From an uncultured Burkholderiales bacterium (GTDB lineage: Bacteria > Pseudomonadota > Gammaproteobacteria > Burkholderiales > Burkholderiaceae_C), in the NCBI GenBank assembly GCA_903828695.1, contig CAIKNE010000005.1:1-44279 (forward strand): a DNA stretch of 44,279 bases. Direction: 5' to 3'. Both the position numbers and the translations under genes were made by a program. Shown in pieces: positions 9,725 to 24,971 of the stretch; positions within the stretch are counted from its first letter, which is position 1, and every line of letters starts with the position of its first letter. The notes under the pieces are model-generated. The model worked only from the letters and a program-made list of their open reading frames with translations. It was not told the DNA's origin and ran no database searches.

Positions 9725-11653
9725 TTAGGCCGGTGTTGCGCCCAAATAAGCTTCAACGACTCGGGGGTCTGCTTGAATGTCAGCAGGCTTTCCGTCAGCA
9801 ATTTTTTGTCCAAAATCCAAAACACTAACTCGGTCGCAAATGCTCATCACCATATCCATATGATGTTCAATCAAGATTACAGTTATTCCACTTTCTTTGA
9901 TTTTGCGAATGATGTTGACCAACTCCTTGATGTCCGGGGAGGTAAGTCCTGCAGCGGGTTCGTCAAGTAGCAAAAGTTGTGGGTCTAGGGCTAGAGCGCG
10001 AGCAATTTCTAAGAGGCGTTGGCGCCCGTAGGGTAAATTTCTTGCCTCCTCAAACGCCAGGTCCGCAAGTCCAACAAACTGTAATAAGCCGTAGGCCTTT
10101 TGATTTGCTGTTTTTTCTTCGTGGGAGTAACGAGGCGTGTGCAGTGCAATATCAAGTAAATTGCTTTCGAATGTGTGATGCAAACCCACCAAAACGTTTT
10201 GTAGGGCAGTCATCTCGCCAAAGAGTTGGACGTTTTGAAAGGTTCTTGCTATTCCTGATAATGCAATTTCAGAGGAGGTTCGTCCGATGATGGTTTTGCC
10301 CTCAAAATCAATTTGTCCTGCAGTTGGATGATAAATGCCTGTAAGCACATTCATCATGGTGCTCTTACCCGAACCGTTGGGACCGATTAAGCCGTGAATA
10401 GTTCCGCGCTCAACGGTTAAGCTCACGTCATTGATAGCCTTTAGACCACCAAATTGCATCAAAATATTTTCTGCTTCCAAAATATTCTTTGTTGCTGAGG
10501 TGCTTTGATGGTGATTTATGCCGTTCATAGCATGGCTTGAGGTGTCTAAATCTATAGACTCTGTTTTGTGATTGCGTTTGAATGCAGTTTTGAAAAAGCC
10601 AATAATACCGTCTTGCAAATAATAGACAACAAACAAAATCATTAATCCAAAAATAGACAATCTCCAGTCTGTGATGTTTGTCAATACAAAGGAGAAGGCT
10701 GCGAGTGAGCAAGTACCTATCACCGGTACTAAAGTGGATTGAATTGAGGTCCTCTTTCTACTAACCGCTATGACTGCACCAATGAATATTGCTGCAGCAA
10801 GGGTAGAGGATACGATCTGAAATGTACCCAAATCATCAAGCAACTTGGGTAGTAAAACAATAATTGCAGCTCCAAGGATGGATCCTGAGCGAGTCTTGCG
10901 CCCCCCCATGATCGTCGCAAGTAGGAACAAAACTGTTAATTCAAAGTTATAGGTGTTTGGGGAGATGTACTGTTCTGAATAGGCATACAGGCTACCTGCA
11001 AGTCCAGCAAATCCTGCACTGATGACGAATGCTAAAACTTTGTATTTGTAGACAGAAACACCCATACAGTCTGATGCAATGGGGCTGCCTCTCAAAGCTT
11101 CAAAAGCGCGACCTAATTGTGATTTAAGAATTCTGTGAACAACCAAAAGCGATACGGCTAGGAAAAAGCAAACGACCCAGTAATAGGCTTGGTCATCTAA
11201 TTTGTAGCTCCCAATTGTGGCTTTGGAAATCTTGATGCCCATCGGACCCTCCGTCATGAAGGTCATCTCATTGATCAAGATTTGAATAATCGTACCAAAG
11301 GCCAAGGTTACCATTGCCAAATAAGGTCCCGATACTCTGAGTGCTGGCAGAGCTAGGACTGCACCGAAGAGCGCAGTGATAAGGATACCCATTGGCAATA
11401 TGAGCCAAATAGGGGCAGAAAACTTTAGGAATAAAACGCCTACTGTGTAAGCCCCAATTCCAAATAGCCCTGAATGGCCCAGTGAGACTTGGCCGGTATA
11501 TCCCACAACAATGTCTAATCCAAACAGTAATATGGAGTAGATCATGATCGTCTCGATCAGATGGATGTAGTAAGGATTGTGGTTAACGAGTGGCACCATG
11601 ACCAGGGCCGCAAAACCAATCAGCGCAAAGATCCAATTATTCTTATTTGACAT
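9725..11653 (-). CDS. livM: HAAT permease-ATPase fusion, LivM-LivG (system A)
   Basis: A single 642-residue protein joining a LivM-type inner-membrane permease to a LivG-type ATPase. The permease half (about 1-335) has the LivM signature YTGQVSLGHSGLFGIGAYTVGV and many hydrophobic helices, including extra segments near 300-345. A linker of about 50 polar residues follows. The ATPase half begins near 390, with Walker A GPNGSGKST at 424-432, a LivG-type signature LPYGRQ at 540-545, Walker B LLLLDEP at 560-566 and a switch His at 597 in LIEHH. LivM-LivG fusions are known in several proteobacteria. The gene starts two bases after the livH stop, so the two are surely co-transcribed and probably translationally coupled. 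Confidence 0.94.
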   Translation of the reverse strand: MSNKNNWIFALIGFAALVMVPLVNHNPYYIHLIETIMIYSILLFGLDIVVGYTGQVSLGHSGLFGIGAYTVGVLFLKFSAPIWLILPMGILITALFGAVLALPALRVSGPYLAMVTLAFGTIIQILINEMTFMTEGPMGIKISKATIGSYKLDDQAYYWVVCFFLAVSLLVVHRILKSQLGRAFEALRGSPIASDCMGVSVYKYKVLAFVISAGFAGLAGSLYAYSEQYISPNTYNFELTVLFLLATIMGGRKTRSGSILGAAIIVLLPKLLDDLGTFQIVSSTLAAAIFIGAVIAVSRKRTSIQSTLVPVIGTCSLAAFSFVLTNITDWRLSIFGLMILFVVYYLQDGIIGFFKTAFKRNHKTESIDLDTSSHAMNGINHHQSTSATKNILEAENILMQFGGLKAINDVSLTVERGTIHGLIGPNGSGKSTMMNVLTGIYHPTAGQIDFEGKTIIGRTSSEIALSGIARTFQNVQLFGEMTALQNVLVGLHHTFESNLLDIALHTPRYSHEEKTANQKAYGLLQFVGLADLAFEEARNLPYGRQRLLEIARALALDPQLLLLDEPAAGLTSPDIKELVNIIRKIKESGITVILIEHHMDMVMSICDRVSVLDFGQKIADGKPADIQADPRVVEAYLGATPA

Positions 11654-23321: not shown

Positions 23322-24971
23322 CTACGTCTTTAAAAACTGAGGTGAGCCTTGGATCTGCTTCCAAAGCTCTGCTTCGCTGGGGCTTAAAAGCTCGGTGAGT
23401 TTTTGCATTGTCTCCGCTGGCTGGTGTTGAATTAAGATACCCAGTTGACGAATTCTTGATAATTTTTTAACGTAATGCTCAAGTGCCTGATCGGTGTTGT
23501 TTGCGATTTGACGAAGTGGTTGAGGAATTAGATTCTCAGACATATTGAATTCGTATAAAACTTTGTCAATGACGCCTTTAAGTTGCTCGGGCGAGAGGTT
23601 CAGACGCTTGCCCTCATTGATTACAAACTCGTTCTTAAGGTCAATAGGCAGGCCTTGTTTGAGTCTGTTGTAAAGAGCTATGCCAAGGTTGTTTTTGTCT
23701 GAATGTAGCTCATCTGAGAAAGATGATGCAAGCAAAGCCGATGGTATTGCAAATATGCCGACCCCAATGACCGCCATCAAAATAGTCATGATTCGCCCAA
23801 TTGGCGTGACGGGTGTTAGGTCCCCATATCCAACTGAGCTTAGGGTGACGACGGCCCAGTAAACGGCGCTGGGAATGTTCTCGTATTTGTCGGGCTGACT
23901 GTCGTGCTCCATTAAATAAGCCAAGCTAGCCGCTAGCACGACCATCAACATCATGACAAAAAGAGCGGCCGCCAAAATGGGAGTTTCTCGCGTAAATACG
24001 CGCTTGAGCACTGCGGTGGAGTTGTTTTGCTTTGTGATCTTCAACAGCCTCATCAGCCTAAAAACCCGCAGGAAACGAAGATCGAATAAGTGGTGCAAGA
24101 AAAGTTCTAAGAAAAAGGGTGCGATCGCTAGGAGATCGATAATTGATGAAAATTTAAGTGAGTGCTTGACTCGACCTGAAAACCATTTCTTAAATACTGG
24201 ATCCTCAACGCATGTATACAGCTTGAGAAAGTACTCGACCGTAAATAAACCAACTGCAATTGAATCAATAATCAGAAACTGAGTGCTCAGCACATAGTGA
24301 ATAGATTCAACAGACTCAAAGACTACTGCAATCACTGAGATAACCACCCACCAGGCAATTAGACTCTCAAACATGTCGTGTATTGCACCGCCGTATTCGC
24401 TGGGAAAAACTATTGAATACATTTTTTGGCGAAAAGTTCGCTTTGCATTGAGCGCCATGAACTCATGATAAGCAGGGATCAGTACTCTAAAGAGCTTGAG
24501 CATCCTGAGTAACCTGAGGAATCTGAGTACTCTCAGGTCTATGGGTAGGAATGCTTGAAAATAAAACGGCGCAACAGCTAAGAAATCAATAACGGCAAAG
24601 GGACTTAATACATAAGCCCCGCGTGCTGACCATTTGTTTTTGAATTCTTTGTCCTCGGGTGCAAGGTACAAACGCATCAGATATTCTATGGTGAAGACAA
24701 TGACAGAGAAAACATCAAAGACATGAAAGAGTTGTTCGTGCGCTTGAAAAATGGCCGGTATGCGCTCCACCACTAATGCAAAGAGATTGATGATGATCAG
24801 AAAACTAATCCAACCGTCAACTTGTTGATGCTTGTTGCCTTCCACTTCTGGATCAAGTAAGAAGGTATAGATTTTTTGTCGAACCGTTTGACAACGACCC
24901 AAAGCCTCCCCCAAAGCCAGGGGCGTTGACGGAGTTGTTTGAAGGCTAGAGGAATTCAGAGCAGAACTCAT
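23322..24971 (-). CDS. K+ channel-like protein with two voltage-sensor domains and one pore
   Basis: An inner-membrane voltage-gated cation channel homologue. Residue numbers below count from the in-frame TTG at 25034; the ATG at 24971 is residue 22 and the likelier start (549 residues). The first voltage sensor has S1 at about 73-92, S2 102-122, S3 140-158 and S4 with Arg168, 171, 174, 177, Lys180 and Arg183 at three-residue spacing. A linker leads directly to a second sensor: S1 224-240, S2 253-272, S3 294-312 and S4 with Arg320, 323, 326, 329, Lys332 and 335. Only then comes a pore: S5 351-375, the K+ filter SVGYGD at 400-405 and S6 413-437. About 130 cytosolic residues follow. The first sensor lacks a pore. 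No ribosome-binding site is clear at either start. Confidence 0.9.
   Translation of the reverse strand: MSSALNSSSLQTTPSTPLALGEALGRCQTVRQKIYTFLLDPEVEGNKHQQVDGWISFLIIINLFALVVERIPAIFQAHEQLFHVFDVFSVIVFTIEYLMRLYLAPEDKEFKNKWSARGAYVLSPFAVIDFLAVAPFYFQAFLPIDLRVLRFLRLLRMLKLFRVLIPAYHEFMALNAKRTFRQKMYSIVFPSEYGGAIHDMFESLIAWWVVISVIAVVFESVESIHYVLSTQFLIIDSIAVGLFTVEYFLKLYTCVEDPVFKKWFSGRVKHSLKFSSIIDLLAIAPFFLELFLHHLFDLRFLRVFRLMRLLKITKQNNSTAVLKRVFTRETPILAAALFVMMLMVVLAASLAYLMEHDSQPDKYENIPSAVYWAVVTLSSVGYGDLTPVTPIGRIMTILMAVIGVGIFAIPSALLASSFSDELHSDKNNLGIALYNRLKQGLPIDLKNEFVINEGKRLNLSPEQLKGVIDKVLYEFNMSENLIPQPLRQIANNTDQALEHYVKKLSRIRQLGILIQHQPAETMQKLTELLSPSEAELWKQIQGSPQFLKT

Follow-up and report, generated by a model that had tools for sequence, protein, structure and literature searches.

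In the voltage-gated channels known to date, each pore module is served by one voltage sensor, and the K+ pores of the known relatives are tetramers. An S1-S4 unit without a pore is the layout of Hv1, and in both Hv1 and the voltage-sensing phosphatase the sensor is not directly followed by a pore. Tandem arrangements have been described in protists, whose Kv-like channels are described as built of two 6TM repeats ("tandem repeat 6TM") (PMC7576140). In many of the proteobacteria sampled in the present work, one-sensor "ion transporter" open reading frames (ORFs) of roughly 300-400 aa were found.

Freshwater bacteria also carry a conserved K+-channel protein with two complete sensors ahead of a single pore. 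It is described here from the window, by which is meant the whole stretch of DNA analysed, 44,279 nucleotides from an uncultured Burkholderiales bacterium. None of the papers listed in searches of open-access literature deals with a bacterial sensor-sensor-pore channel, and the protein is apparently an undescribed variant of the Kv-like channels.

Layout of the gene and its protein

The gene was located at 23322-24971, where a preliminary description made from the sequence had correctly placed it; the strand, left unstated there, is established as minus by translation, which gives 549 aa, the plus strand being full of stops in this region. An alternative TTG start is possible 63 nt upstream (25034). 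The features are:

23322..24971, minus strand: channel gene, 549 aa, with ATG at 24971 and stop at 23322-23324; Pfam PF00520 twice and PF07885 once
24486..24830, minus strand: first sensor (VSD1), residues 48-162, with S4 at 145-162 (nt 24486-24539); from model helices and conserved charges
24363..24485, minus strand: inter-sensor linker, residues 163-203, an S4 extension and a short helix with an RTFRQK motif, no pore; from its fixed length, the hydropathy and motif test and the model
24027..24362, minus strand: second sensor (VSD2), residues 204-315, with S4 at 297-314 (nt 24030-24083); from conserved charges
23658..24026, minus strand: S4-S5 linker, S5, pore helix, filter TLSSVGYGD (nt 23820-23846) and S6, residues 316-438; from phmmer alignment to Kv channels and the conserved filter
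23325..23657, minus strand: cytosolic helical tail, residues 439-549; from AlphaFold2 helices

The domains thus follow the order S1-S4, a 41-residue linker, S1-S4 again, S5, the SVGYGD filter, S6 and a helical tail. Pfam returned two Ion_trans stretches and one Ion_trans_2 (pore) stretch at residues 341-417, with no other Pfam domain in the 549-aa protein. The basic residues of S4 are R147, R150, R153, R156, K159 and R162 in sensor 1 and R299, R302, R305, R308, K311 and K314 in sensor 2, in agreement with the earlier claim of two full S1-S4 units with six basic residues per S4 at three-residue spacing. S5, the filter and S6 follow the second sensor only, as had also been claimed, with one Ion_trans_2 match and a single filter, TLSSVGYGD, at residues 376-384. 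Aligned with each other, the two sensors of the window protein are 36% identical across 134 residues (E 2e-27 in this single comparison).

An AlphaFold2 model of the monomer was built from a shallow alignment of 55 rows comprising two-sensor and one-sensor members; it reached a mean pLDDT of 84.0 and a pTM of 0.71, the packing of VSD1 lying beyond its reach, and replaced a poorer model made with two-sensor members only (45 rows, mean pLDDT 72.3). VSD1 is among the best-predicted parts, with helices at 48-69, 79-106, 124-141 and 146-174 (block pLDDT about 87-95), and a short helix (180-188) is placed between the sensors. The helices of VSD2 span 195-219, 222-256, 274-291 and 298-315, and beyond them come 318-328, 330-355 (S5), 366-378 (pore helix) and 390-438 (S6), the pore being weaker, with block pLDDT about 72-85. 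In a Foldseek search against the PDB, the best 50 matches were all Kv1, Kv2, Kv4 or KCNQ chains, and the query-normalised TM among them was low, 0.31 at most, which we ascribe to the extra sensor and to uncertain domain placement in a monomer model.

The tail was modelled as helices at 448-456, 461-480, 486-491, 493-516, 518-528 and 531-542. Its length, given previously as 130 residues, is rather about 111-126, depending on where S6 is taken to end; the accompanying statement that it holds no recognised domain stands, with no Pfam family above cut-off in residues 424-549. TerB matches below the Pfam cut-off were seen in the tails of two relatives only, L017:6021-6974 and L022:1859-3061 (E 0.003 and 0.011), and TerB is a possible identity for this otherwise unrecognised segment.

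Conservation, spread and gene surroundings of the two-sensor family

From the loci, 219 different related ORFs were collected, leaving out any shorter than 230 aa and any that lack a preceding or a following stop within the locus. By BLAST, 103 of these (window included) span both sensors and the pore, defined as a query start below 70 and an end above 410; with a protein from Gemmobacter they make up a 104-member alignment.

A degenerate pore hidden between the two sensors was considered and rejected. The highest 19-residue mean hydropathy within linker 163-203 in any of the 104 members was 0.91 (median 0.27), whereas the nine transmembrane helices that were measured have medians of 1.14-2.45. 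The linker is 41 residues long in 103 members and 42 in one, none of the 104 has a filter-like motif in it, and each protein has exactly one [ST][VI]GYGD. In the AlphaFold2 model this segment consists of a long S4 extension and the short helix only, with no pore helix. The structure prediction for which the preliminary description had called thus revealed no such pore, in line with the hydropathy and motif test, and the pore in each repeat that marks two-pore or two-repeat channels is absent, all 104 members being without a strongly hydrophobic linker segment or a filter there.

Each S4 charge and counter-charge, in VSD1 and VSD2 alike, is present in 95-100% of the 104 members. In VSD1 the counts are D86 101, F93 103, E96 104, R100 104 and D129 104, and along its S4 R147 99 (H in 4, G in 1), R150 100 (K in 4), R153 104, R156 104, K159 103 and R162 102. 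In VSD2 they are D236 102, F243 104, E246 104 and D279 104, followed in S4 by R299 103, R302 103, R305 104, R308 104 and K311 104, with position 314 R in 98 and K in 6. The filter residues T376, L377, S379, G381, Y382, G383 and D384 are invariant (104/104). Since the sequences were selected for their resemblance to the query, and most belong to one genus and its relatives, these counts describe the family and not independent events.

The selection test is better evidence than the conservation counts. It was carried out over 36 pairs, each sequence being used once, as a ratio of sums with saturated pairs dropped, and gave dN/dS values of 0.036 for VSD1 (31 pairs), 0.042 for VSD2 (33), 0.016 for the pore (33), 0.068 for the linker (29) and 0.065 for the tail (28), absolute values that are rough, many pairs being close to synonymous saturation and the set of dropped pairs varying by region. 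Purifying selection is strong on both sensors, and about equal on VSD1 and VSD2.

These data also bear on whether the arrangement is an artefact limited to the window, produced by a frameshift, an assembly error or the fusion of two genes. A few relatives are indeed broken: at L136:589-2383 VSD1 and VSD2-pore lie in different frames, and at L025:3772-5439 a stop parts them, each a case of decay or assembly error. Against this stand the 103 different single ORFs (window included) that reach from the first sensor through the pore, the spanning matches listed for 75 of the 84 genomes in the window's genus, and the purifying selection on both halves. The artefact was therefore rejected, its probability being negligible, and the frameshifted fusion raised earlier as a ground for doubt was not borne out; the sensor-sensor-pore order belongs to a lasting family and is not a one-off.

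Further copies were found in the window's own genome. Contig C41 carries two different two-sensor genes side by side (L031:6623-9837), 39-44% identical to the window protein, and another copy is split between the ends of contigs C33 and C145; its two pieces overlap, differ slightly and were counted as one gene. The genome probably has four such genes, two of them adjoining. Within the genus, a match at E 1e-20 or better is present in 82 of 84 genomes and, among the matches listed, 75 genomes have one that runs across both sensors and the pore (starting by residue 61 and ending at 411 or later); the other nine show, among those matches, shorter ones or none (two being without any), and some of the assemblies are incomplete.

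Outside the genus, full-length forms are patchy. The family sample (299 genomes) held seven genomes with a match at 1e-60, four of them full-length (the window's own genome, G027 and G006 of its genus, and G334 of genus g85), the order sample (250) two full-length (own and G900), the class sample (321) one (own) and the phylum sample (397) two (own and G1318); in the samples for genus g85 and for the genus of G900, 22 of 60 and 1 of 11 are full-length. Each sample is a draw, with score limits and a ceiling on the number of candidates, that includes the window's own genome, and so they bound and do not measure the spread. A scan of genome contigs returned 485 stretches encoding relatives, the best 80 of which bear titles of Limnohabitans, Rhodoferax, Polaromonas, Comamonas, other Comamonadaceae, Burkholderiales or betaproteobacteria, with one Oxalobacteraceae and one Methylococcaceae.

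In a check for a mobile origin, 11 of 72,556 plasmid records matched at E 1e-20 and 10 of 50,697 phage records at 1e-5, none with a match that covered 80% of the query. One of the plasmid genes, from the freshwater alphaproteobacterium Gemmobacter aquarius (L125:2707-4182), covers 62% of the query; its 491-aa product, annotated only as "ion transporter", reads sensor-sensor-pore, a diverged two-sensor channel in which some S4 charges are lost in both sensors. A 6.9-kb IMG/VR "viral" contig (L154:1-1341) carries a 53% relative and is perhaps misfiled host DNA.

In the window, the gene stands among a CorA-like gene, a small BLH-phosphatase gene (PF04273) and a divergent thiC-like gene, the names other than that of PF04273 being given by eye. 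Elsewhere, further channels are frequent neighbours. Among 76 two-sensor loci, 16 with under 2.3 kb downstream were left out; of the remaining 60, 35 have a GYGN and then a GWGN channel downstream, 4 a partial or variant set and 21 none. Examples of the pair are L016:5799-7671, L017:5102-6977, L018:7823-9698 and L020:3837-5701. The first gene reads TITSGYGN in 34/37 and the second TI[IV][SA]GWGN in 39/39, and the two overlap by 4 nt in 23 of 37 GYGN/GWGN pairs. Asn in place of Asp together with Trp in place of Tyr suggests a heteromeric, perhaps non-selective channel.

The odd-filter pair and two two-sensor genes are packed into about 6 to 8.3 kb in L016, L017 and L018, and in L017 and L018 the cluster also includes a Nav-like gene, named by eye and, for that of L017, by PF00520. 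Such Nav-like one-sensor genes adjoin a two-sensor gene at L017:7861-8676, L018:4763-5623 and L019:8549-9346 and 10842-11639, with filters read by eye as TLESWAD (L017, L018) and TGDGWSD (L019). Just upstream of a two-sensor gene, L017:2777-3361 encodes a 195-aa protein with, by eye, a hydrophobic stretch close to the N-terminus and no Pfam match, and ORFs resembling it occupy the same place in L016, L018, L023 and L033. The presence in some Limnohabitans of clusters combining K+-type, Nav-like and two odd-filter channels may hint at an electrical physiology of freshwater bacteria.

Proposed gating, alternative roles and origin of the first sensor

We propose, with moderate confidence and on the grounds of sequence, conservation, selection and model, that the protein is a K+ channel of the Kv type: VSD2 would gate the pore in the usual way, and VSD1 would serve as an additional working sensor in series, giving eight sensors per channel. 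The K+ channel part of the proposal is much surer than the coupling part, in which the role of VSD1 is what we infer. Judging from the filter and the relatives, four subunits would form one K+ pore; if it is tetrameric like those relatives, two sensors per subunit would make eight. VSD2, beside the pore, would couple to it through the usual S4-S5 linker. The S4 of VSD1 is predicted to run on as one long helix into the fixed-length linker that ends at S1 of VSD2, and for an S4 continued into a linker of constant length a mechanical coupler is expected rather than a loose tether. VSD1 would lie outside VSD2, moving its gating charges in the same field, and by pushing on VSD2 would shift the voltage dependence of opening or make it steeper, with gating in two stages. 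Somewhat short of an even chance, we place the more specific picture in which four VSD1s, arranged as an outer ring, detect the voltage and act via the S4-to-S1 linker on the inner VSD2s, with two separable gating steps. The channel may also co-assemble or act with the downstream GYGN/GWGN pair of many relatives.

The series arrangement VSD1-VSD2-pore is favoured because VSD1 is complete, under selection and followed by a coupler-like linker, and among the roles previously floated for the first sensor, that of a modulator fits best, a fit that is unproven. Points against it are the sister genes without VSD1, the 9 of 84 genus genomes without a spanning match among those listed, and the loss of S4 charges in Gemmobacter. 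The sisters (387-401 aa; L022, L024, L032, L127, L129, L133 and L134) manage without VSD1, which is thus dispensable for such genes to persist; this would suit a structural, assembly or docking module whose charges are kept for folding or topology with no part in gating. Docking is conceivable, with two close or overlapping one-sensor genes (GYGN and GWGN) downstream at 35 of 60 loci. However, a mere scaffold should need fewer kept residues than are found in VSD1, where every S4 position from R147 to R162 is kept in 99-104 of 104 members, plus F93 (103), E96 (104) and D129 (104). This role therefore fits less well; it is unlikely and ranks next after series coupling.

Far less probable still is that sensor 1 acts alone as a proton or cation path in the manner of Hv1, the proton path having been among the earlier suggestions. 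Its poreless S1-S4 layout does match that of Hv1. On the other hand, the mid-S1 position N62, seven residues before E69, which from this spacing to the next Glu we take to correspond to the Hv1 selectivity-filter aspartate (D112 in human Hv1), is N in 93, S in 10 and A in 1 of the 104 members, and never acidic. Against the PDB, VSD1 alone matched KCNQ2 best (E 4e-6), then KCNQ4, then bacterial Nav and Kv2/Kv4 sensors, with no Hv1 in the best 60 of 118 matches, and a full S4 charge set would speak against a leak path. The proton path is therefore disfavoured.

The origin of VSD1 is a separate matter, compatible with any of these mechanisms. It is possible, although we lean away from it, that VSD1 descends from a channel of two repeats whose first pore was lost, or was taken over from the sensor of an adjacent one-sensor channel, and did not arise by duplication of the protein's own sensor. 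By BLAST, the window's VSD1 is slightly nearer the sensor of the GWGN neighbour (98.6 bits) than the best VSD2 (92.4), and a tree of 82 sensors sets VSD1 among the one-sensor channels and not beside VSD2, a placement that is weakly supported (89/69) and involves a long branch. Against such an origin, a single clade of VSD1, VSD2 and the sisters was not rejected (AU p 0.42), the RQK motif before S1 begins both halves of the window protein, and a second filter is absent in all 104 members. In the tree, VSD1 (without the long Gemmobacter branch) forms one well-supported group and VSD2 another, with sister L135 nested inside; the AU tests rejected none of five groupings. Both duplication and capture remain candidates, since tree, AU tests and BLAST favour neither decisively. 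The main branching order is common to the VSD1 and VSD2 subtrees (a group of L139, L031, L016b, L018 and L144, then L128, L126 and the rest), and the two sensors therefore appear to have travelled together.

By eye, the one-sensor sisters (387-401 aa) open with a linker-like stretch before the RQK motif, and no remnant of VSD1 (S4/S2 motif) was found within 700 nt upstream in the seven tested, an eighth, L135, having been read by eye in three frames only. Both observations suit loss of VSD1, without proving direction. A split pair of sensor and channel genes as ancestor, considered for a long match in G1144, was rejected, L150 being an ordinary one-sensor channel.

Relation to known channels

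A natural, widely kept protein that has two intact sensors for each pore module would make it possible to ask directly how many sensors can serve one K+ pore, whether one sensor can be coupled to another, and what linker after S4 such coupling needs. The system is tractable, being small and bacterial, with natural one-sensor sisters that serve as controls. If the series proposal is true, one sensor would gate another before the pore within one natural protein.

The Kv channels (Shaker/Kv1, Kv2, Kv4, KCNQ) are among the closest known families. A phmmer search of PDB sequences places the Kv1.2-Kv2.1 chimera and Kv2.1 first (E about 5e-23, covering VSD2 and the pore), with an alignment that runs through S4-S5, the filter and S6. 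VSD2 has the basic S4 and the S2/S3 counter-charges of a Kv sensor beside a pore (102-104 of 104), and SVGYGD is a K+ filter of the T/S-V-G-Y-G kind; the S4 spacing and the filter are those of Kv channels. The match to NF040645 (hyperpolarization-activated voltage-gated K+ channel) reached 60.2 bits, below its curated cut-off of 300 bits. Unlike Kv channels, which have one sensor per pore domain, the window protein has two sensors to one pore, and for this reason it is a Kv variant and not a plain member.

From Hv1 and the voltage-sensing phosphatase the protein differs in that its sensor is joined to a complete K+ channel and that the S1 position, presumably equivalent, is non-acidic. The bacterial one-sensor "ion transporter" channels (PF00520 and PF07885) share with it a related sensor, the pore and part of the tail, but are without VSD1. 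The protist tandem Kv-like channels resemble it in carrying tandem sensors in one chain; each of their repeats, however, is described as a full 6TM unit (PMC7576140), whereas the first repeat of the window protein is poreless.
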